A stretch of DNA of 64,000 nucleotides. Origin: Paracyclopina nana. Taxonomy: Eukaryota; Arthropoda; Copepoda; Cyclopoida; Cyclopettidae. The notes under the pieces were generated by a model, which worked only from the letters and a program-made list of their open reading frames with translations, ran no database searches and was not told the origin of the DNA. Of the stretch, positions 8,815 to 34,437 are shown piece by piece. The stretch is taken from NCBI GenBank assembly GCA_019096065.1, contig JAGUCH010000009.1, positions 1,994,001 to 2,058,000 on the forward strand. The letters run 5' to 3'. The position numbers and the translations under genes were made by a program. Positions within the stretch are counted from its first letter, which is position 1; each line of letters opens with the position of its first letter.

Positions 8815-12224
<3,410 letters not shown>

Positions 12225-16910: not shown

Positions 16911-19693
16911 ATGGATCCCAAAAAAGTGTGTCAAGTCTGTGGTAGCTATGCAAAACCCAAAGAAATTTACTTTGCTCACTATGGTGGCATCACTTGCTTG
17001 AGTTGCAAGGCATTTTTCCGAAGAGTCATTCGAGAGAAGAAAAATCTGGAAGAATTTGAGTGCAAGACATCCGGACAATGTGATCTTCTCAACTCAAAAG
17101 GAGCAAAGTGCAAAAAGTGCAGATACTACCAATGCCTGAAAGCAGGTTAGTTAATGCAGCCTGTAATTGCTGGTTTTCTTGTGCTAAAGTATTTTTTTTT
17201 CAGGTATGCAGCCCAATTTGGTGCCAAATGAGGAGGAGAGTAAAAAGTTCACATTCCCCAAGAAGAATTGTGGAGGTTCAGCCAAGCTAAGGCTTACTTC
17301 GAAGACTGCAGCCTTGGATGAAGTGTTATGCAACTTCTCCACCTGCTGGATATTCAATGACAAGGCCACATCCTTAGTCATTGCTCACCAGATTCCCTTG
17401 TGGAATGCCAGCAGTACCCTGGCATTTTTGGACATTCTGGATATGCACGTGATGGCTACTGTTGCTTTCGCCCAGAAAAGCAGCACTTTTAACTGGCTGA
17501 GCATTCATGACCAAAGATTGCTACTGAATAACAATTCTAAGTTGTTCACTCAGTACATGATGGCAAAATACTTTTCAGCTGAAAATGGATTTGACCAACT
17601 TGTGTGGATCTTGGGCTCGAATTTGCCTCATCTAGGTGAGTTATCCAGCACATGAAATTATCTATTATATTATGCTATATGTTCTTTATTTCCATAGGCA
17701 ATGATGATCGCGCAAAGCTAGCATTCTTCACTTTTGATCAGATCAACTCAAATGGATGTCTAATACCCCTGGATAGACCAAATCAAATCAGAGCCTACAA
17801 GGAAAACTTGGAAGTGTTTAGGAGAATGTCCACTTTCCCCTCCATCTGCAATGCACCTATTGCCAGCTACCTTCTCTACTCATCAGGTCATTGGAGGCCT
17901 GAAGACCAAATGAGCCTGGGGGATCCATCCAAAGTGAAATCCATGAGCGACTTTTCTGCCGAACTGCTAAGATATGGATGTCAAGGTAACCAAAAGGAGC
18001 AGGAAGATCGCTTTTCACCTGCTTTCTTGCTCAAGCTTGCTCTGACACTACACAATTTGGATGAATGCATGGGTGCCAGCTCCCGAGGCACCTTTTCCCA
18101 TCATGGCAGGGAAGCGAGTAAAGAGGCTGCCAAAATGCCAAGTGATGTTTCAAATGATACTGGCAGCCATAAAATGTACTCATTCCTCATGGACACGATC
18201 ATGTCATCCTATGCGATGACTGATTTGGAGATGAATATTGATCACTTTTCTGAACATGGAGTGATTGCAGGACACCTAGGATCAACCTGGACGGCTGATC
18301 ATTCAGAGTCCTTCTGCCAATTGATCAATCACTTGCCTCAGTTCATTTCCAAGTTTGCCCATGACGACTCTTATTTTCTTAGCCTCTGCGGTGATGACCA
18401 AGCCTTGCTGCTGAGCAAAAATTCAGAACTGATTGTACAATATCATTTGGCAAGGTATTTTGGAGCTGTCAATGGACTTGATCAGCTCATTTGGGCTCTT
18501 GGCTCCCACTTGCCTCAATTAAGTAAGTTTCCCATACATAATATGAACCTTGGGCAAAGATGCCATTCAATATTCTTATTGCAGCCTTGCAGGAAATCCA
18601 GGGTTTGAACTGGATCTCCTTTGATACCATCAACCAAGATGGAAAGTTGATCAGCCTGAGCTGCACCATGGCCATTGAACAGTACAAAAAGTTGATTGAG
18701 CAAATCAATGAGCAGTGTGAATTTTCCCAATTTCACAATTGCTTTCTAGCCCACTACATCATATTTGCCACTTCTCATTGGACCATCGAGGAAGAAAGCA
18801 GGCTGAAAGAGCCCAAAAGAATCCAATGGATCAATGAAATGTCAGCCAAAATAATCAACCATGGCTGTAGGCATATGGATGCAATCCTGGGCCAAGCCTC
18901 TCTTGGTCAACTGGTGGCATCACTCAGTCAAATGGCTGAATTGAAAGCGAAAAATGACAAAATTGGCTATGCCTTGACAACTCAAAATCTCACTCCAGCT
19001 GAGCAAGATTGTATCAACCAGTGCTTGTCATTTCGAAAGAATGCAGAAGCATTGTATCAATTAGATGCCAACTTTGTTGGCTTAATGGTAGCATTTCAAA
19101 GAGGAGAGCACCACCTCAGACCTCAGTTGAACTTTTGTGGTACCAACATACAGCTTTCTCGTTTTGGAGTTGTCATTGACCAAGTTTTACCCCAATTGAA
19201 GGCAGCTGAACGCCACAGCATCGCAGTACTAACATGCCGAAAGGCTGCATTAATGCTTTTCTCCAAAATGGTTGAGCTCTCCACTTTCAGACTACAGCTG
19301 GAACTTATGGCAGCCTCACCAGACATTTTGGCCCAAACTTGGATTGATGACATCCCTCCTTTGTTAATGAATGAAATGTCCGGCTTTGCCTCTTTGATCA
19401 AAAAATTTGAGTGGAGGCTGATGAGCCAATTGAGAGGCTGCATCAACCAATTTCTTTCAACAAGGGAAATTATAATCCTTGCTGAATTTCTGATACTCAC
19501 TGGTGATGATGACAGCTCAGAAGTTGTGAGACTGAACCAGTTTTTGAGGGGCATCACTCTCAAAAAGTTGAGAGAAATGCATAAAGGAGAAGATCCACGG
19601 ATGAAATTGGCCATCTTCTTCCAAAACCTGTCTGAGTATGCTCAAGTGATGAGGAAATTCATGGAAGAATCCGATGTACAGAAGCCTCAATGA
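16911..19693 (+). CDS. nuclear receptor with one DNA-binding domain and three LBD-type domains
   Basis: Four exons, 16911-17145, 17204-17635, 17698-18522 and 18585-19693, give 866 residues. Residues 7-75 are a C4 zinc-finger DBD (C7, C10, C29, C32; C51, C57, C67, C70) with P-box CLSCKAFFRR. The gap between the second and third cysteine is 18 residues instead of the usual 13. A ligand-binding-domain core recurs. LBD-A spans about 105-350, with the helix 4-5 motif HDQRLLLNNNSKLFTQY. LBD-B spans about 383-625, with DDQALLLSKNSELIVQY, and each continues into INSNGCLIPL / INQDGKLISL and an H8-H10 block. A third, divergent domain, LBD-C (about 650-866), has the same helix pattern but no DQ. Introns 2 and 3 are both phase 1 and cut LBD-A and LBD-B at the same place, so exon 3 looks like the product of exon duplication. 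Ligand and targets are unknown. The paralogue at 32381 has two LBDs. Confidence 0.85.
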
Positions 19694-21095: not shown

Positions 21096-23234
21096 GTTTT
21101 ATTGACTAGTTCTTATTGAAACTTGAGACACAAAAGGCTTTTCAAAGAAACACACTTGTTCATCTCTTGTTGATCGGTGAATGACGCATAGGGCAATTTT
21201 GCTTCATTGCGATGTTATGCTCATAGGCCCCATGGAGGCACATTTGCCTGGAGCATGTAGATGAAAGGTCTGTAAGAAGTGCACCAGTCACAATGTTAAT
21301 AGGAAACCGGGATTGACAGCTTGGACGAACAGTAATCCCATAAAAAATGTGCATGTCTCAATGGAGGGAAATAATACGGATCCATAGGTTGCCAGTCTGG
21401 AATCATGGTTTTGCAAGAAGCATACTCGGACCGATTGCTTCGCAAGCCTTTGAGCGCATGGCCAACTATTCATGCTTCTCCATTTGCATTGCATAGGAGA
21501 TTGATCAAAGCCCTCGAAATGGCCTCGAAATGCTACTGGGCTGATCTGGAGGCCAACTTTTGGACCAAAGTGCAAAAACAAGTTATTTTTGGGCTAATTT
21601 TTGGGAATACAAAAATGGCCACCACTACAATTTGCCTGGCCATCCATTTAATATTTGTTCAGCAAATTATTAGTGGGTATATGGAGGTTTCCATGCAAAA
21701 TGGCCGCTACTGATCAAAACGGTTTTTCTCATTAAAACGTACTTGTCGATGATATGCTTTTGGTATATCTTTACCTTGCTGGAAAACCAGTTCAGCCAAA
21801 AGTCGAGCAGCTTTTTTATGGGCTTTGGCACTTTAATCTTTACTTTTAACCAAGATTTTCTTACCACAACGCAAGAAATAGAAAAGCTTTCTTTGCATTA
21901 TTAGTTTGCTAACATACACTGATTTCTAAAGACATGCTCTGATTTGGGCAGCAAAAAATAAGAGTGTCCACTTTCTGATAAACTCATAGGGACTCGGAGC
22001 ATAGTACTGTGCACTAGATGGCGTTAAATTCAGATGGCTTGACGTCATGTTCGCGTGATCGCAGATGCCCTATCGGCCATTTTGTACCAGAATTTGATCT
22101 CAATAAGAGCCATAAAGAGCCAGCTGAATAAATACAAGCAGCCACTTTTATTGCTTAAGCTGATCTGGTAGCACTTTTAATTGATGCACTAGCAAGCCCA
22201 AACGCCAGCATTAAAATTGGCTAAAAGTTGATTGTTTCGCAAACAAGAGCTTGCAAAATGGTAAGATGATAATAAGATGATAATATTTTTTTGGAGCTGT
22301 ACATAAATTGGGCTTGACAAAATGCCTCTTTTTTGAACAAATTAAGCAAAACTAAGAATTTTGCCATCCGAGATGGCATATGCAGGCCGCTTTCAGCCAT
22401 CTGAGAATTTACGCGCGCGATCTGATTTTTTAGACCATTTTCGCTTCAACAGACAGCTAGGGAATTCAACATGCATATAAAACCTGATCAAAACATACAT
22501 TTTACGCCATTAATATGACTTGTGCTGTCAAAAGCAAATACCTGCGTTGCAGCAAATCCATAGAACATAAGAAGGAGGAAAAGCAGAATTTAATTTCAAG
22601 TCTACCTACGCGCAAAATATTGAAACCATGTCTGCTTTCTATATCTTCACTTTCTTCAAGCTTTCAGCAAAGGTTCGACTGATGCAATAATCTAGACAAG
22701 ATATTTTATCTAAGTGAGATATCACAAAAAAGCAAAAAGTGTGCTATATCCAGAATGGCTCTGGTTTACTCAAAAGTGCGCAATTTCCAATATATTCTTG
22801 TAATTTTCGCATCAGACTCTATGTAATGCATGATAAAAATCTCAGTGGCTTATGCGTTAGCGTATTAAGTGCCATACCGTAAAAGTATGTGAGCATGTAT
22901 GTGTATGCTGCTAAACAAGCTTGGAGGCTCTCTCTTGCTCTTTAAAAGCTCTCCATAGGTAAAGTCTAGAAAATGGGCCCCTCTCTTTCTCTCCTCTCTT
23001 CTCCTGGATTCAGTTTATCATACCAGCCCCACTACGCAAAAATTTATTTGGCTACCTGTGTATCTCACGTGGCAAGTCCTACATCTCGGCCCTCTTTGCT
23101 CCTGTTGAGACCCACTGATTGACAAGTACTACATCACTAAAGAATCTTAAATTTGGCAATTGTGTGATGTCATCAAGTCCTGCAGCTCAAAAATATTTTC
23201 TCTAATGAATCTGGCAAGATAATCTTATGCCAGA
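21096..23234. other. intergenic, no gene supported
   Basis: 2.1 kb between the JHBP gene and element A. The open frames (for example 21405-21713) show no recognisable domain or splice-compatible continuation. A few GCCATTTTG-type phrases recur (21500-22390), similar to the repeat at 31.0-31.6 kb, but I cannot delimit an element. Confidence 0.4.
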
Positions 23235-23461
23235 TATTGTACTTTTGACTTCCTGGCAATCACTCTTTTACGCAACTAACTCTTTTCCTGCTTCCGCCTA
23301 ACAACACTCACTCTTATGATAGTGCCGTAACCTTGTGCGACAGATATATAAGCGCGAGTACTGCAATAAAGAAACAGATTTGATACTGACTTTGAGCTAG
23401 CAAGTTGTGCTCATTCCGGCTCGCCATAGTTGTAGGATCTTGGGAAGTCCAGGATACAATA
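23235..23461 (+). repeat. 5' LTR of element A
   Basis: 227 bp LTR with a TATATAA box at 23345-23351 and AATAAA at 23365-23370, very close together. No difference from the 3' copy was seen by eye. The outer boundaries are uncertain by a few bases because flanking bases extend the match. Confidence 0.9.
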
Positions 23462-23577
23462 TTGGTGGCATCTGACTTTTCGACCTCACGTCCTCGTTTT
23501 TAACCTGGGGGAGGGACTCTGCCCTTTTTGCTTGCTTGCAAAAGAGCAGACTTTGCGCCGGAATATAGTCAGTGTAT

Positions 23578-24666
23578 ATGCCTGGCTCAGGACGAGTTGC
23601 AGGTGAAGAAGACGTACCAGTGGAGCCTGGTAATCAAGAGGAGCCTGCGGGCAATTTGGATCAATTGGGCAGTCACAGCACTACTGCCATGGCCAACAGG
23701 GCAATCAAGGCAATCGATTTGCCTGAATTTTCTGGAGACCGATCGACGGACAAGCTTGGACCTCGAGCCTGGGTGACACGCATAGATCACCTGCGTACAA
23801 TTGTCAATCAAGGGGCTGCTGCTGCTGAACAACCCCGCTGGAGTGATGAAGCCACTGCAAGTTATGCAGCTTTGGCCTTGAAAGGCAAAGCAGGTCAGTG
23901 GTATAATATTTTGGCTGAGGAGAAGCGGACGCCCTCCACTTGGGAGGGGCCTAATGGATTGAAGAAGATTTTTCTTGCTCGTTTCCACCATGTGTGCACC
24001 TTGGCTGAAGAATCGGCAATTGAAGACTCCTTGGTACAGGAGCCTAATGAGACGGTCAAGGACTTCTTTGATAGGGTCAAAACTGGGACCCTGACCTTAA
24101 TGGAGAACTTCGCACCTTTGGAGAACACCCCCACCACTCTGGTTGCCGCGGGTAAACTGCCAGAGGTCCAGGAATTGGCGAAGAATGAGGCCTACCAATT
24201 TATGGTGAAGCGCCGATTTATACACGGGCTCATCAAGACTATCAAGTCGCAGGTTGTGGTCCAAGAATACACCAAGTTGGAAGATATAGTTGGCTTCGCA
24301 TCAAGAGTGGAAGCTTCATTTTCCAATGACAAGAAGGCTTCAGTACCACCACCAGAGGTTAATGCCATCAAGATTCAAGATAAGGAAGATCAACCGGCCC
24401 AACCCAAGAATCAAGAGAGCCTCGAAAATACAGTGGAGAAATTCATTGACCTTGTCAAGGGTCGCCTCGGGGAACGCAGACCACCTAGGACCTCCCAGGG
24501 TAATCGCCTTAAATGCTGGTATTGCGACATTCCAGGCCACCGAGAGACGGAGTGTTTCAGCAAGAAAAGAGATCAGAAGAACAATCTATATAAACCCAAG
24601 CCTGGAAGCAAGAGGGCCAGCGAAGGGAAGCAAGCTCATGAAGTTCAAGGTGATTTAAACTGGTAG
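23578..24666 (+). CDS. gag: gag of element A
   Basis: About 362 residues from the ATG at 23578. The N-terminal half has a capsid-like helical region (KAGQWYNILAEEKRTPSTW; FFDRVKTGTLTLMENF). The C-terminus has a CCHC zinc knuckle, CWYCDIPGHRETEC, followed by a basic tail, the nucleocapsid signature. The stop at 24664 is followed by the protease frame shifted by -1, suggesting programmed frameshifting or a separate start. The frame is intact. Confidence 0.88.
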   Translation: MPGSGRVAGEEDVPVEPGNQEEPAGNLDQLGSHSTTAMANRAIKAIDLPEFSGDRSTDKLGPRAWVTRIDHLRTIVNQGAAAAEQPRWSDEATASYAALALKGKAGQWYNILAEEKRTPSTWEGPNGLKKIFLARFHHVCTLAEESAIEDSLVQEPNETVKDFFDRVKTGTLTLMENFAPLENTPTTLVAAGKLPEVQELAKNEAYQFMVKRRFIHGLIKTIKSQVVVQEYTKLEDIVGFASRVEASFSNDKKASVPPPEVNAIKIQDKEDQPAQPKNQESLENTVEKFIDLVKGRLGERRPPRTSQGNRLKCWYCDIPGHRETECFSKKRDQKNNLYKPKPGSKRASEGKQAHEVQGDLNW

Positions 24667-24677
24667 GCGGCCGTCCC

Positions 24678-25592
24678 GTGCTCCAGCCGACGCGCCGCCC
24701 TGGTCTGGCCGCTTCAACATTCTCGATGCTACTCTCATACTTCACAACCATGACTGTAAGTCGACCTGTTACCAATAAACGGCCATTTTTGACTGTAACC
24801 TGCCACGGAGCAAACTTCAATTGCCTTTACGATACTGGTGCTAATATCAGCTTGTTGTCACGCACCGCCTTTAGAAAGATTCCCATTGACAAGAGGCCTC
24901 AAAAAGTGCTAACTGCATCCCCGCTAAGAGCTACCTGTGCGTCCGGTACGCCGCTGCGAATACTTGGACTTTATCAGCTGCCATGTGACATCAAAGGAAA
25001 ACAAACTCTGTGCGACTTTTATGTTTGTGACTCCTTAAATGTAGAAGGTATCCTGGGGGTGGACATTATCCATGCTGCTGGTTTACACTACGACCCCATC
25101 TCTATGGCCATTCACTACAAGAAAACCTCGCCAACTGCTGCTGTCGTCCACAATGACACTTTTTTGCCTGCCAGAAGCGTTGCAACTGTCAGACTGTTAA
25201 TTACCGATGAAGAACGCAAACGACAACCAAATTTTGAAGGATGTTTCAAGCTCAGAAATTACGAGGATTCCATGGTGTGCGCAGACGACTGCCTTCTTCA
25301 AACAGACGACTTTGGAATCGCTACTGTGAAAATCACCAACCCTGGATTGGAGCCCGCTACACTGAAGAAGGGGCTAAAAATTGGTGAACTCGTCAACATT
25401 GATTTATCAGATTTTGTACCGTTTAATGATGCATTTGCTTGTGTTTCCAGCATTTCTACTTCGGGACAGCCACCTAGGCATGATCCCATGGTGAAGGAGT
25501 ATATTAACAAGCATGCCAGACTTGACCACTTGACTCCTAATGAGCGTCAGAATTATTTAAAACTGGGAAGGGAACTGATCACAATGACATGA
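24678..25592 (+). pseudogene. pol: pol (protease part) of element A, truncated
   Basis: Protease with the catalytic triad CLYDTGANISLLS and the later GILGVDII flap/psi-loop motif, followed by about 150 residues of linker. The frame ends at a deletion junction near 25587: the next base pairs already encode the region downstream of the polymerase active site in another frame. No start codon is needed if it is made by -1 frameshift from gag. Intact up to the break. Confidence 0.82.
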
Positions 25593-26669
25593 TTGCAGGT
25601 TTGGAGGAATGCTTTGCGCGGCTTCGGAGAGCAAATCTGAAAATCAACCTCCCCAAGTGCTCCTTTGGAACTACTGAGTGCACTTATCTAGGCTTCACCT
25701 TAACACCTACGGGTTACCAACCCAATAAGAGGAAATTACAAGCCATAGAAGATGCTCCTCCACCTACCACTGTCCGTGAGATAAGGCAATTTCTGGGACT
25801 ATGCAATTTCTTTCGGTCCTGCATTCCAAGGTTTAGCAAGCACTCACATGCGTTATCACAGTTAACCTGCAAGGACTCAAGCTGGCGCTCTGGCCCTCTG
25901 CCCCCTCAAGCCTTACAATCTTTTCAGAACTTGAAGGAGCTTTTGTGTAGTGAGCCTGTGTTGGCTTACCCCAAGCCTGAGCTCGACTACCATTTATCTG
26001 TGGATGCGGCCCAAGGCTCTGTGGACAACAGCTTGGCTGGTGGACTGGACGCTGTGTTGATCCAGTACCAAAACAACGTGCCTAGGGTAATCAGCTATGC
26101 ATCAGTGAGTCTCCTGAAGCACGAGAAGAACTACACACCTCATCTACTCGAACTATTGGCTTGCACCTGGGCAATCGAACACTATGCTGTCTTCCTTACT
26201 GGAACCAAGTTCACATTGTACAGTGATCACAAACCCTTGGAGAAGCTCAACAAGACCCATACTCGCACACTTTCTCGCCTCCAGGACCTCATGATACAGC
26301 ATTCATTTACGGTCCAATATTGTCCAGGTGACAAAAATCCTGCTGACTTTTGTTCTAGAAATGTGCCCGAGGCCTTGCGCCAAATCAACGCCTGTGTGTA
26401 TGGGGTCTCTACAGAAGCCTTAGAGGATTTGGAAGTCATGAAGCAGCTGCAGAATTCAGACACGGTGCTTTCCGCTCTGATCGCCAAGATCAAGACCAAT
26501 TTGACGCCATCTACTCCCGAACTGAAGCGAATTGTGAATAGATATGCCAGACATTGTGAACTCAAAGATGACATCTTGCTGATAACAATTGGACAACTAG
26601 GCCGCCGGGTTATTTGTGCACCGGCTATATGCCAGGCTGACATCATTAGTGCTGCTCATGCTGCCGTTG
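25589..26669 (+). pseudogene. pol: pol (RT thumb, RNase H) of element A, lacking RT core
   Basis: Begins after the YxDD position of reverse transcriptase: ANLKINLPKCSF and YLGFTLTPTGYQ are the segment that normally follows it, then the RT connection (FLGLCNFFRSCIPRF) and RNase H (DHKPLEKL, NPADFCSRN). The fingers and palm with the catalytic aspartates are absent, so the copy cannot reverse-transcribe itself. The frame runs into the inserted transposon at 26670, within the integrase HHCC zinc motif (SAAHAAV). Confidence 0.85.
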
Positions 26670-27292
26670 CACAGTGGGCCACGGTGACCCTTCTTTCTCC
26701 ATTTCAGCCAAATTATGAAATCCAGTTTCAAACACTTTTTTATCTTAAAATAGTTCCAATGGGTTCTTGGTGATCAGAAATGACCATTTAAAAGGCTCTA
26801 AATTCAATTCGATTTGTGAATTCATGATCATTTTTGAGAAGCATCCCGAATTTGCTAAAAAAATCTAAGCAAAAAGAAATGTCAAAAAGTGGCTACAAAC
26901 TTCTACTGTTCCATTAGAACTATAATTTTTTTTGTTGAAGCCTTAAATTAGAATTAGTCTAAGTATTTTAGGTCTCAAGAGAACAGGATTTCATTAAAAA
27001 TAAGGGTCAAAATTGACCCAAAAAGATGAATCTTCTATTTGCATGTAAAACTAAACTAAATATTAGCAGAACTTTTAAAGTCCAAGGTTGTCCAACCCAT
27101 AACACTGTCAAATTGGAGAAAAAGTAATATGAACAGGGTTGGATTGCAAAAAAAGTGCGTGAATTTGCGTAAGACTTTGCTAGAAAGAGTCAAAAGTTCC
27201 AGTTTTACAGTAATTTGGGGGCTTTGCTAATGCGCTGCCGATTTGACGAAAAATAAGAAATGGAGGAAAATGCTTCAACGGGGCCCACTGTG
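26670..27292. mobile_element. Transib-like non-autonomous DNA transposon with CACAGTG ends
   Basis: 623 bp inserted in the integrase of element A. The termini are CACAGTGGGCC at 26670 and its complement GGCCCACTGTG ending at 27292. The terminal inverted repeats align without gaps over 36 bp (26670-26705 and 27257-27292) with 29 matches. A perfect 5 bp target duplication CGTTG flanks it (26665-26669 and 27293-27297). Removing the element and one CGTTG restores the integrase frame, which proves the boundaries. Ends starting CAC(A)(G)TG with 5 bp duplications are characteristic of the Transib superfamily, the relatives of RAG1; CACAGTG is the exact consensus heptamer of vertebrate recombination signals. 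No nonamer-like block was found at 12 or 23 bp spacing. The inside is AT-rich with no coding capacity. Confidence 0.85.
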
Positions 27293-28829
27293 CGTTGGCC
27301 ATAAAGGAGTTTACAAAACTTGTGAACGAATACGAGAACAATATTTCTGGCCGAATATGGTGGCCGACGTGGAAGAATACATTGGCTCATGCTGGAAATG
27401 TGACAAAAGCAAGCTAAAGTCACAACACCCCAACACTCCCTTAAACCCGCTATCACAACCTAGAGGGCCGTTTGAACGAGTGCACTGTGATCTCTTCGGA
27501 CCACTACGAACATCAGGTAGACAAAAGAAGTTTATCCTAGTCATCACGGATGCTTTCACAAAATATGCCGAATTTGTGGCATTGCCAGACAAGACTCCAG
27601 AGACAGTTAGCCGAGGCATTTTCAACAGGTGGATTTCGCGCTATGGATCACCATGCATTTTGGTAACCGACGGTGGTAAGGAATTTACAGCGAAGGTCAA
27701 TGATGAATTGTTCTCGCTACTGCAAATTGATAAGAAGAAAACTAGCCCCAGACACCCCCAAACTAACGCCGCAGCTGAAGTAATTAACAAGCATATCATT
27801 AGCTATTTGCAGAAAACGCTAGATTTGGATTCGACGCTTGACTGGGAAGAAATGTTACCAGCATTGCAACTGAGCTACAATGTGGGCGTTAGTAAAGCAA
27901 CAAAAATGAGCCCGTTCTTCCTTCTGTTCGGGGTACACCCCAGGACCCCATACATGGACCCAAATGTGGTAGACCACAAGTATTACGGTGATAGCTACAA
28001 AGACGAAATTGGAAAACGGCTCCAAATTGCACGACGAGTGGCCGCTGAAAACAACATTCACTACAAGGAGTTGTACACTGCACAGCACAATGCCAAGGTA
28101 AAACAAGAAGACTTTAGGGAAGGTATGCTAGTGTGGCTACACAGACCTGAATTACGCAAGATTAACCCTAAAATTAATTCGCCTTGGGAAGGCATGTATG
28201 TTATTGTGAGTCTGCAAGATGAGAATGCACTCATCCAACACATGCAGACAAAGAAAACAAGATATGTGCACAAAGACAGGTTGCGAATTTGCAAATCCGC
28301 AGCCAACATGCCTGGGCCTACTCAGTCAAGCGCCTTGCCCGACGACCCAAAGCCAGACGTCGCAACTCGTGCAGAAGAAAATGAAACGCACGCCTCAGAA
28401 ACAAAGTCTGGCTATATAAGGATTGAAGACGACGACATCACCATTCTTAACCCTCTGGCACCTCCGCCGCAGCCCATCCCGATCAAAACTGATACTGATC
28501 AAGAGTCTGCAACTGACTTCACTCGGCCTAACGTTAAAGAGGAACCACCAAGCCCAGAATCTGCTACTGATAATCAACCTACAGGGCTGTTTCAGCGGTT
28601 ACGGCAAGGTATTTCACCGTTATCTGATTTTGGTACCGAGCTAGGCAACCTGGTCGTCCCCCTCGACCCTGAAGTCCAACGCCAAGCCCGTTCCTATAAG
28701 AAGGCTACTGCTCCCACCGAACAACCCGCTACCACCCGTAGAGCTGCGGCTGCAAAGAATATTGAGATACAAGATCCAGTTTTACCTTCCAGGCCAGTTG
28801 AATACAAGAAATACACGAAGAAGAAATGA
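27293..28829 (+). pseudogene. pol: pol (integrase) of element A, severed from upstream part
   Basis: Starts at VGHKGVYKTC, in the HHCC zinc domain (H..., CWKCDKSK), then the catalytic core with D (CDLFGPL), D (TDGGKEF) and E (NAAAEVINKH), the DDE triad. The C-terminal region is about 240 residues long, proline-rich and acidic, and ends KKYTKKK. It is intact from the end of the inserted transposon to the TGA at 28827, which overlaps the env start codon (ATGA). Confidence 0.85.
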
Positions 28830-30589
28830 ACCTACACCTGTACTTTATCACTCTGCAACTTGTAGCAGACTTTGTGGCCACAGGGAGGGGATTGGCTGAA
28901 ACGCAGAACCCCACAACTCAGCTGTTGTCAAAAACTTCCAATACAGACTGGTCCCACTATGGATTCCAAAGGGCTGGCAAAGCCATGGTCTCGGTCCATT
29001 ATGGCCATATCTACATAAATGTCAATCTTCATAATCTCAAGGAATACTTTTCAGTTGCTCTGAACCTCCAGCTCCTCATCTCAAGCGCCGCCACTTCTAA
29101 AGCAAATGACTTAGTACTCCAAACTCTCATGGATCTTGTCAATGAACGCACTCGCCGAATGGAATTGAAGTACAACGATGTCGTTAGCTTCTATACGCTT
29201 TATTCAGACAACAACCAGGGCCCCAGACAGAAACGGTTCCTTGGTGTCCTCCTAGCAGGCCTCGCTGGTCTGGGCATTGGATCAACCCTATTCGGATTAC
29301 TTGACCAAGGAAAGATGGACAACCTTGCCAGAAACATCAACAAGCTGGGTTTCCGCCAAGACAAGATAATACACCTCCTTGGTAAGACTAATGAAAATGT
29401 CCGCTTAAACAGGGTAGACATTGCTAAACTAAGAGAAGCCTTGTCTGCTGTTTCCAACCTGGTAAGCAAGAACCAGCTAGAAATAGAAGTCACTGTTCTA
29501 GCCATGCAATCTGACCACATCCTTAGTCTGATTGAAAATAAGCTTGACTTGTATGTCGCTGCAGCAGCTGCCGGCGCCCGTCACAGACTTGCCCACGGCT
29601 TACTCTCTTACGAGGAGGCTTCCAGCTCCTTAAAAGTGGTCGCGAAGATGGCACGCAACAAGGGCTTACAGCCAATTGTTACTGACCCCCATTACCTATA
29701 CCAGCTTGAGACCTCCATAATCTTTGACGTGGACGGATTTAACCTACTTGTACATGTGCCACTTACCAATGAGGATCAGGTTTTGACACTCTATCGCTAC
29801 TTGCCCTTCCCCATTGAAATCACGCCAGGCCTAACTGTAGAAGTTCATCCAGAACATGACATGTTGGCCTTACACGAAGAATCCGGATCGCACTTTGAGC
29901 TATCCCACACGGACATCTCTATGTGTGAAAAGGTGCACGACTACTATATCTGTCCCCATATATCCTATCTGGCCAAAAGAAATCAGCCTTCCTGCGTAAT
30001 GTCCCTCTATCTTGCAGACCACAATCAAGCTTTAAAAACTTGTAAACTGGCAATACGGCAAGCTACCGATTGCATCCTTCCATTTGGGAACAACGAGTTT
30101 TCTGCTTTTACTGAGGATCCAACTTATTACCAACTGACATGCAGCAATGGCACCACGAAAACTAGCCAACTACACCACTTTCATCATTTCAAGTTAGAAG
30201 AGGGTTGCAATGTTGAGCTTCCACACTTCACGTTGTTTGGGGGCATAGAAATCAGAGTGGAGAAGACTATGGAAACCTACAAATGGAATGTCCCAATTCT
30301 CCAGCTTGGTCACAATATGTCACCAGACGACATTCTGAAGACTCTAAACCAGATCAACTCCACTTTACCTCCAACTGACCCACATTCTCTGGCTTTCCTC
30401 AAAAGCCATTTTGAACCAGTCACAACTTGGAATGAGACGTTAATCATCATTGCCATCGTTGCTGTCATCTCCCTAGTTTTGGTTCTCCTGGTCTACTCCT
30501 ACGCCTTCAAGAATTTCCGCGTAATGACTTTCTTCCGACAAACTAAAAATCAGGACCATGACCTAATTCCCAATAACGTCACCACCTAA
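28826..30589 (+). CDS. env: env of element A (errantivirus/baculovirus-F-like fusion protein)
   Basis: 587 residues, an uninterrupted frame overlapping the end of pol by 4 bp. An N-terminal hydrophobic signal is followed by an F2-like part, a furin-type site RQKR at about residue 130, and immediately after it a glycine-rich hydrophobic fusion-peptide-like stretch (FLGVLLAGLAGLGIG). Then comes a heptad-like helix region, a cysteine-rich ectodomain and a single C-terminal transmembrane helix (TLIIIAIVAVISLVLVLLV) with a short tail. This layout matches the class I fusion proteins shared by errantiviruses and baculoviruses. It is intact although pol is dead, so the protein could still be made from a suitable transcript. 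Confidence 0.82.
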   Translation: MNLHLYFITLQLVADFVATGRGLAETQNPTTQLLSKTSNTDWSHYGFQRAGKAMVSVHYGHIYINVNLHNLKEYFSVALNLQLLISSAATSKANDLVLQTLMDLVNERTRRMELKYNDVVSFYTLYSDNNQGPRQKRFLGVLLAGLAGLGIGSTLFGLLDQGKMDNLARNINKLGFRQDKIIHLLGKTNENVRLNRVDIAKLREALSAVSNLVSKNQLEIEVTVLAMQSDHILSLIENKLDLYVAAAAAGARHRLAHGLLSYEEASSSLKVVAKMARNKGLQPIVTDPHYLYQLETSIIFDVDGFNLLVHVPLTNEDQVLTLYRYLPFPIEITPGLTVEVHPEHDMLALHEESGSHFELSHTDISMCEKVHDYYICPHISYLAKRNQPSCVMSLYLADHNQALKTCKLAIRQATDCILPFGNNEFSAFTEDPTYYQLTCSNGTTKTSQLHHFHHFKLEEGCNVELPHFTLFGGIEIRVEKTMETYKWNVPILQLGHNMSPDDILKTLNQINSTLPPTDPHSLAFLKSHFEPVTTWNETLIIIAIVAVISLVLVLLVYSYAFKNFRVMTFFRQTKNQDHDLIPNNVTT

Positions 30590-30611
30590 ATCTTTTTACC
30601 ATGGGGAGGGA

Positions 30612-30838
30612 TATTGTACTTTTGACTTCCTGGCAATCACTCTTTTACGCAACTAACTCTTTTCCTGCTTCCGCCTAACAACACTCACTCTTATGATAGT
30701 GCCGTAACCTTGTGCGACAGATATATAAGCGCGAGTACTGCAATAAAGAAACAGATTTGATACTGACTTTGAGCTAGCAAGTTGTGCTCATTCCGGCTCG
30801 CCATAGTTGTAGGATCTTGGGAAGTCCAGGATACAATA
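30612..30838 (+). repeat. 3' LTR of element A
   Basis: 227 bp, no difference seen from the 5' LTR, preceded by the polypurine tract GGGGAGGGA. Confidence 0.9.
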
Positions 30839-31006
30839 CATATATAGCTAGATCATAAGTAGATCTCACTAGTAATAGATTTTATTGCATTTTCTGTCCC
30901 TTTAAGTCATGAGATAAAGTACTTGACAAAAAAACCATTACAAAATCAAGACTATTCCTGATTTTTTATTTTTGTCAACACTCAACGGATTCCTCAGCCA
31001 GCAGCT

Positions 31007-32380: not shown

Positions 32381-34437
32381 ATGGATCCTCGCAAGGTTTG
32401 CCAAATTTGCGGAGAGCATGCCAAGGCAAATAAGAGCTTTTTTGCCCACTATGGCGTGATTTGCTGCCTGAGCTGCAAAGCCTTCTTTCGCCGCATCCAC
32501 CAAGAGCAGAAGGATATCAACAGGTTGGTATGCAAAGGCTCTGGTACGAGTCAGTGTGACATCAGCTCAATGAAAAGGGGCAAATGTAAGCGTTGTCGCT
32601 ACTTCAAGTGCTTGGACAGTGGACTCAGGCCTGACCAAGTCCTGGATGAAGAGGAGAGGAAAAAGTTCACTTTTCCCCATAAGCAAAAGCCCAAGCGAAG
32701 CCAAAAAGCTCATGATTCTAATGACAAAAGTCCAGCACAATCTAGTGAAGAAGAAGGTTCACCGCCCAATGAGCCCCAGTTTGCCATCAAAGACATCATG
32801 GAGCATCTGCTAGCCAACAAAATGGAGTTGAGCTTGGATGAGGTGGAGGCCCAAGCTGTCATTGGAGCCCATTTGCAGACACAGTGGAGCATGGAGCAGT
32901 CGACTTTCTTCATAGGAATCTTGCGGAAGACCACTGCGGTCATGGCTGACTTTGCCATTGGCAATCAGTACTTGAACAGCCTCTGCAGTGAAGATCAGGA
33001 ATTGCTCTTGTGGAACAACTCTGAGCTGTATACCCAATACATCATGGCTCGATATTTTGGATCGGATTGTGGCCTCGACCAATTGACGTGGCTTATTCCA
33101 CCACAAAAGCTAAGTACGATCGAAAAGTACCATCTCAGTCCAATAATACATGGCTTTTTTTAGTGACATATGATCTAGTAGTAACCTGCCTAAACTTGCC
33201 TAGTTTACGCCAGCTGAATCAAGTGCTTTCTCTTTTTTACCAATTATATCTTGTTTTTCATTTTCTGTGAAAGCATTATGCGTGATAAAAATGGCAGCAT
33301 GATAAATGCATTATTTTTTTTGGCTTTTCAGCTCTATGGCAAATACAGCAGTTGGTGAAGGTGCCATTCGACCAAGTCAACTGCAATGGAGCCATCATTC
33401 CACTGGATCAGCCAAACATGATCCAAGGCTACAGCCAGTTGTTCTCGCTGATTCACAAGTACTTCAAGTACCCTCAACTTTACAATGGGGTCATCGCTTT
33501 CTACCTCCTTTTTGCCACCAATCATTGGCCGTCTCATGAACGTGAACGCCTCGTGGAGCTCAGGAGAGTCCAATGGATCAACGACCTGGGCAAAGATCTC
33601 ATCAACTTGGGCTGTCAGGGCTTGAGCATTGGGAGCAACCAATTGGACCAGCTGGTGTCGTCTCTCAAAACCATGGCTACCATAAGTTGCCACAAAAGGT
33701 TGTCCACATTGGCTGAAAATCTGGAGCTGCAGACAATGCTGGAGCACCAGGGAGAAAAGGAATGGCTGGCCACCAAATTGGACATCTTTCACGAAGCTGT
33801 CGTCACTGTCCAAGTGGATGGCAACTACATCCAAATGATCATGGATTTCAACTTTGGCGATTATGACCTGAGGCCACAAGTCTGCTTCTACACTGCAAAC
33901 GTGGTGACCAAGAGGTTCCAGCTTGTCATTGACAAGCTCCTGCCGTCCCTCGGATATGGAGAAAGAGTCTTGCTCAGCAAGTTCAACTTTCAAAGGGGAG
34001 CATTTGTTGGCTTTGTGCGCATGCTGGATGCCAAGACTTTCCAGGAGCAAATCGACTTCCTCACTGGATCCTGCTGTGTCATCCCTGGCGGTGAGCATAT
34101 GGAGCTACTCACAATGGATAAATACAATGGGAAGACCCCATTGTGCAAAAAGCACCAAAAATTCCATCTCAGCTCTCTGAGAAGATCCATTGGCATGTTT
34201 ATTGCCCAGAAGGACTTTTGGCTCCTGAGCACTTACATCGTGCTGCTTGATCATCCGGATAATCCCAAGGTGATCAGCTTGAAGAATCTTTTCCTCAGAA
34301 TCTTATGCAAGATGGTGCGAGAGAGGAAGGAGTACAAGAACCAAAATCCGGAGATGGTCGTCCACGAATTTTTCAAAAACTTGCATGATTACGCCTTGCT
34401 CCTCGCTTCAATCGCTCAGGAATTCGAAGGCGAATGA
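32381..34437 (+). CDS. nuclear receptor with one DNA-binding domain and two LBD-type domains
   Basis: Two exons, 32381-33113 and 33332-34437 (218 bp intron, phase 1), give 612 residues. The DBD (residues 7-77) has C7, C10, C29, C32 with P-box CLSCKAFFRR, again with an 18-residue first loop, and a second finger with a 7-residue D-box gap (CKGSGTSQC) against 5 in the paralogue. After a basic/acidic hinge comes LBD-1 (about 145-385) with EDQELLLWNNSELYTQY, the VNCNGAIIPL strand and a complete H7-H11 block. The intron falls at the same place and phase as introns 2 and 3 of the gene at 16911. A further region of about 215 residues has the helix 3-5 and helix 8-11 pattern of a second LBD (RFQLVIDKLLPSLGYGERVLL; FWLLSTYIVLLDHPDNPKV) and aligns with LBD-C of the paralogue. 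Ligand unknown. Confidence 0.85.

Follow-up and report, generated by a model that had tools for sequence, protein, structure and literature searches.

The RAG1 core is believed to derive from the Transib superfamily of transposons, of which, to our knowledge, few members have been studied at the bench. In names such as Transib N1–N3, the letter N marks non-autonomous elements, i.e., those without a gene of their own. Elements N1–N3 of the malaria mosquito (named in PMC8355894) have Transib ends; the insert characterized here resides in another host and is likened to them by description. In another copepod genome, 262 DNA/CMC-Transib copies appear in a repeat table produced by automated annotation (PMC7878743). 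Hztransib, the Transib of Helicoverpa zea (6pqn and five further entries), has the catalytic residues D126, D225, and E436 (PMC6941560) and generates a 5-bp duplication (PMC1852546). A 5-bp duplication likewise results from RAG transposition (PMC6941560), the consensus heptamer of the V(D)J recombination signal sequence (RSS) is CACAGTG (PMC8289069), and CAC ends combined with 5-bp duplications are reported for ProtoRAG and other RAG-like (RAGL) transposons (PMC7204232, PMC8289069).

The insert shares with these systems the 5-bp duplication and terminal inverted repeats (TIRs) that start with CAC, and the RSS-like heptamer CACAGTG is present at both of its ends. Unlike Hztransib, it lacks a transposase gene. 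Unlike the V(D)J RSS, its second box is T-rich and not ACAAAAACC, a nonamer that neither end contains within its first 44 bases, and there is no 12/23 pair. ProtoRAG and RAGL elements differ from the situation found here, as no RAG2-like gene exceeded the cut-off in this genome and its transposases match Hztransib. The insert is very probably a member of the Transib superfamily moved in a cut-and-paste manner by a RAG1-like DDE transposase encoded elsewhere in the genome. What is new here is a member of a known Transib kind, and its value comes from the youth of the family, from a candidate partner, and from the preference for certain targets. The titles and abstract openings found on Transib in connection with RAG1, copepods, crustaceans, MITEs, or target preference contained no description of the family.

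Structure of the insert and its insertion site

The insert of 623 bp lies within an LTR retroelement in the window, i.e., the whole stretch of 64,000 nucleotides of Paracyclopina nana that was analyzed. The features are as follows:

23233..30838, + strand: host LTR retroelement with gag-like, RT/RNaseH, and integrase genes, a further ORF (28826–30589), and identical 229-bp LTRs
26665..26669, no strand: target-site duplication CGTTG, left copy (direct reading; the insert is among the 50 of 52 copies with an exact duplication)
26670..27292, + strand: non-autonomous Transib-type element (MITE-like), 623 bp (ends, family, 35 empty sites)
26670..26705, + strand: left TIR with heptamer CACAGTG, GGCC, a variable stretch, and a T-rich box ending in CTCCATTTC
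27257..27292, − strand: right TIR with CACAGTGGGCC, a variable stretch, and a T-rich box ending in CTCCATTTC
27293..27297, no strand: target-site duplication CGTTG, right copy (direct reading)

The boundaries were described as exact in an earlier note on this DNA, and the matching CGTTG at 26665–26669 and 27293–27297 can indeed be read directly from the sequence. The 11 bp CACAGTGGGCC are identical at both ends, from where the inverted repeat continues imperfectly to 36 bp. The inverted arms comprise 37 nt with 81% complementarity, the outermost pair falling inside the duplications; the 36-bp TIRs claimed earlier are therefore correct as an imperfect repeat. An autonomous Transib encodes its own transposase; at 623 bp and with no ORF of at least 120 amino acids contained in it, the insert is a non-autonomous member.

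In a domain search of the host element, the RNaseH match lies on one side of the insert and the integrase zinc-binding match on the other. Together with one duplication the insert adds up to 628 bp (1 mod 3). Once 628 bp are subtracted, the ORF on the RNaseH side (25589) shares a frame with the one on the integrase side (27243), so that by coordinate arithmetic the proposed restoration of the integrase frame upon removal of the insert fits. The LTRs (229 bp; 23233–23461 and 30610–30838) are identical. No obvious short target duplication is seen beside them (window 23218–23232 and 30839–30853), and the ORF at 28826–30589 gave no Pfam match.

Empty sites in other host copies, which the earlier note had named as a check, were searched for using the 365 bases to the left and the 365 bases to the right of the site separately and pairing the matches by coordinate. 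The left flank yielded 37 matches in 36 host-element copies, one copy being split by a different insertion. The distance from the left to the right flank is 633 bp in the window copy and exactly 5 bp in the other 35 copies; the insertion therefore contributed 623 bp and one duplication of 5 bp. In the right-flank search, 40 of 81 candidates were scored, and four of these 40 matches had no left partner and were left out (two fragments and two relatives at 68–69%). All other host copies found via the left flank thus have an empty site. In another copy of the LTR element (C7:4325961–4327212), the left-flank region carries a different insertion of about 515 bp, at which four letters are repeated.

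Copy number, target-site duplications, and age

The genome searched comprises 92 Mb in 10 contigs. Further copies with the same ends, as had been expected, were found in number: the 20-bp left end occurs 58 times exactly and 62 times with up to two mismatches (reversed-pattern control 0), the 28-bp right end 53 times with up to two mismatches (control 0), and all 40 scored matches of a DNA search with the insert (40 of 71 candidates scored) cover its full length (1–623). Both ends could be read in 52 copies, 30 and a further 10 from the DNA search and 12 by pairing left and right ends; this count leaves out 10 of the 62 left ends and one of the 53 right ends, for which no partner was recognized.

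An exact 5-bp duplication flanks 50 of the 52 copies, the window copy included, and none of these 50 also fits a duplication of 6 bp. The two exceptions are L026, in which an extra G adjoins the duplication, and the diverged copy L118, in which four of five positions match. When left and right 5-mers were compared between different copies as a control, they agreed in 52 of 2450 pairs (2.1%), compared to 50 of 52 within copies. The proposed duplication length of 5 bp is thus upheld, and no copies with a consistent other length were found.

Among 30 aligned copies (gaps ignored), groups of three to five are free of substitutions over 622–625 bp although they occupy different sites, which indicates a very recent spread; the two most distant copies are 6.9% apart. 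Between the window copy and its six nearest relatives, the difference is 1.3–1.4%. Because the LTRs of its host element are identical, these differences probably predate its insertion. The recent movement previously deduced from the LTRs therefore rests on identical sister copies as well.

Target-site preference

Among the 50 exact duplications, position 1 is C in 42, position 2 is A in 33, position 4 is T in 35, and position 5 is G in 40. The pattern YRNYR applies to 32 of 50 duplications versus 5.65% of the 5-mers in the window, and CANTG to 14 of 50 versus 0.50%. The symmetry extends beyond the duplication: Y at −3, present in 46 of 50, has its counterpart in R at +9 (44 of 50), as does the C that directly precedes the duplication (33 of 50) in the G that directly follows it (24 of 50). 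The preferred target is near-palindromic and built around CANTG. For such duplications, a GC bias was reported previously (PMC8289069). By hand count, YRNYR is found in just three of the 11 duplications of autonomous elements in this genome (CGCTG, CACCG, and CGGTG), which speaks against a target rule that is general for its Transibs.

Transib transposase loci and the candidate partner

Inverted CACAGTGGGCC pairs about 3 kb apart were fetched and translated, which led to two complete elements. Searched at the protein level, the genome yielded 25 matches, seven of them with stop codons, which were grouped as 12 Transib loci and two fragments. The catalytic residues D, D, and E are retained at all 12 loci, and both ends with a 5-bp duplication were identified at 11 of them, in a search that accepted exact 5-bp duplications only and was blind to other lengths. 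The best end pair per locus matched at 17–30 of 30 positions, the next pair at 12 at most. At C1:10235192 the duplication repeats letters of the tip and is ambiguous; the ends of the element at C7:3723403 could not be closed. These loci provide candidates for the autonomous transposase source that had been postulated for this genome, now or until recently.

Of the 11 two-ended elements, seven carry CACAGTG at both ends, three CACAGAA at both ends (C5:4447753, C2:12309862, and C1:7132283; loci L052, L054, and L055), and one CACAGTG together with CACAGAG. The last letters of the heptamer therefore vary between lineages of one genome. Judged by eye, one type of end consists of the heptamer, about 14–17 further bases, and AAAAACTCGC-like letters (A-tract ends). 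In the insert and in the element at C1:2177476, a T-rich box occupies the place of the A-tract and is followed by CTCC. Both kinds of ends are two-box structures with the same type on both sides. A 12/23 arrangement was considered for the A-tract elements and rejected, since, judged by eye, the distance from the tip to their A-rich box is similar at the two ends and differs by no more than about 1 bp. Two element pairs are 96.3% and 99.7% identical (C3:10179254/C3:3750359 and C1:9566899/C9:3658495; L056, L057, L060, and L058); by their sequences, other Transib lineages in this genome also look recently active. Unlike C1:2177476, these paired elements have two long ORFs that are separated by a gap, perhaps an intron.

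The element at C1:2177476–2180495 (3,020 bp) is flanked by the duplication CGCTG, which fits the target pattern of the insert family. It contains an open stretch of 703 amino acids (688 counted from the first Met). The predicted transposase matches Hztransib (6pqn, E 1.8e-59) over approximately 490 residues, the only distinct PDB sequence at E ≤0.001, and extends about 180 residues (from the first Met) ahead of the part matched to the solved chain. Counted by hand along the alignment (offset 17), its D287, D390, and E600 align with the catalytic D126, D225, and E436 of Hztransib (PMC6941560). The protein is 34–38% identical to the other eleven transposases, which are 53–99% identical among themselves, and its lineage is present as a single copy.

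The 3′ TIR of this element agrees with the left TIR of the insert at 30 of 40 positions, and the similarity amounts to 81–85% over 54–55 bp. Its 5′ TIR is a poorer match (27 of 40), and no end of the ten other elements compared exceeded 20 of 40 positions. The similarity between the insert and C1:2177476 stops after about 54 bp at one end; short shared ends with an autonomous element are usual for MITEs. Transib/RAG1-core D-D-E transposases do exist in this genome, one of them between ends similar to those of the insert, and it is from these ends that we infer the C1:2177476 lineage to be the probable enzyme source of the insert family.

Orphan tips and neighboring genes

The 11-bp tip CACAGTGGGCC occurs 229 times in the genome (reversed control 25). 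As a family marker on its own it was rejected, because 67 of the 100 places listed (229 in total) belong elsewhere, i.e., outside the listed family ends and outside two CACAGTGGGCC-tipped autonomous elements in the listed part. For none of 18 orphan tips read with longer flanks was a partner end with an exact 5-bp duplication in reach. A G directly precedes the tip in 31 of the 67, YRNYR precedes it in eight, and positions 24–26 are A in 30, 30, and 32 of them. AAAA within positions 20–30 was counted in 14 of 67 orphan tips versus five and two in two control stretches. Judging by these letters, some orphan tips may be ends of further Transib families; L160 looks like a diverged relative of the insert family, and several tips in coding-looking sequence are probably due to chance. 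L045 and L048 are further examples of orphan tips. Two outward-facing pairs about 360 bp apart were seen at L041 (interior 927–1287) and L042 (interior 833–1181), with no shared interior or duplication by eye.

Elsewhere in the window, nuclear-receptor-like ORFs were noted by eye at 17652–19693 and 32381–34437, the latter with a C4 zinc-finger-type start at 32381. The occurrence of related ligand-domain-like ORFs in two places, as read from the translations, suggests a local expansion. A calcium-ATPase ORF at 9103–10914 has matches of up to 89% identity among the best 120 of 7671, including the copepods Tigriopus californicus (82%) and Lepeophtheirus (83%).

Discussion

The Transib-type reading of the insert is supported by independent copies, empty sites, the duplication length, and transposase genes, and the observation made in the earlier note is confirmed as a whole. 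Two of its points need to be narrowed. Of the proposed Transib/ProtoRAG class, the Transib part is retained rather than the ProtoRAG/RAG-like part. The heptamer CACAGTG is identical to that of the RSS, as claimed, but is not decisive alone as a class marker, given the three Transibs that end in CACAGAA.

CAC tips occur in more than one superfamily, so by themselves they are not exclusive and would also suit CACTA or Chapaev elements, or a chance pairing of repeats. Both of these superfamilies have duplications shorter than 5 bp, whereas 50 of 52 copies have exactly 5 bp; with the 35 empty sites and the same type of tip on elements that contain Transib genes, such an origin is hardly conceivable. 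No matching element of another superfamily, which had been named as potential counterevidence, surfaced in the DNA and pattern searches, which were not aimed at other superfamilies. A RAG-like transposon of the ProtoRAG/RAGL type, carrying genes for RAG1L and RAG2L, would likewise account for CAC ends and 5-bp duplications, which are described as common to RAGL transposons (PMC7204232). Such an assignment is nevertheless very improbable, as the best RAG2 match reached 15.2 bits (cut-off 21, E 0.35) and thus no RAG2 match exceeded the cut-off in six frames without introns, a search of uncertain sensitivity in which none of 14 control genomes was positive. With RAG1 (PF12940), one transposase piece reached 17.8 bits, below the cut-off of 25, and C1:2177476 gave no match; the solved relative of the candidate transposase is Hztransib. 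The missing RAG2 match therefore argues for Transib rather than for a ProtoRAG or RAG-like transposon.

Within the Transibs, the mover of the insert might have been another lineage of this genome, one with A-tract ends, or a close relative that has since been lost. Several other elements have the CACAGTGGG tip in common, two of them are 99.7% identical, so that this lineage was recently mobile too, and the single-copy state of the C1:2177476 lineage leaves room for a closer relative, lost or unfound, as the true source. Beyond the tip, however, the other elements agree with the insert at no more than 20 of 40 positions compared to 30 of 40 and 26 of 40 for C1:2177476, and they have A-rich AAAAACTCGC-like letters where the insert and C1:2177476 have the T-rich box. 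We therefore regard a different mover as unlikely and retain the C1:2177476 lineage as the probable enzyme source.

The host LTR element would have landed first, its integrase being interrupted later by the 623-bp element. Its homologs Hztransib and RAG1 suggest that the enzyme would nick beside the CAC tip, form a hairpin on the flank at excision, as reported for Hztransib, and join the freed ends into the target with a 5-bp stagger (PMC6941560, PMC8355894, PMC11844651). The target would be symmetric and bend at two pyrimidine–purine steps. In RAG strand transfer, the target is described as kinked twice, 3 bp apart, within the 5-bp site (PMC11844651), and by analogy pyrimidine–purine steps at the places of the kinks would ease such a bend. 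The target rule would thus suit the double-kinked target described for RAG.

We tentatively consider a Transib system that is active today, in which a deeply divergent single-copy lineage powers the burst of a MITE family and recognizes a symmetric target, about 13 bp long (Y n n C - C R N Y G - G n n R); we would rate this as possible but somewhat short of an even chance. If true, Hztransib would be joined by another tractable RAG1-type transposon, whose target rule would be sharper than the reported GC bias. With a young family, identical copies, dozens of target sites, and a candidate transposase that is uninterrupted, RAG1-type end recognition would become testable without RAG2.
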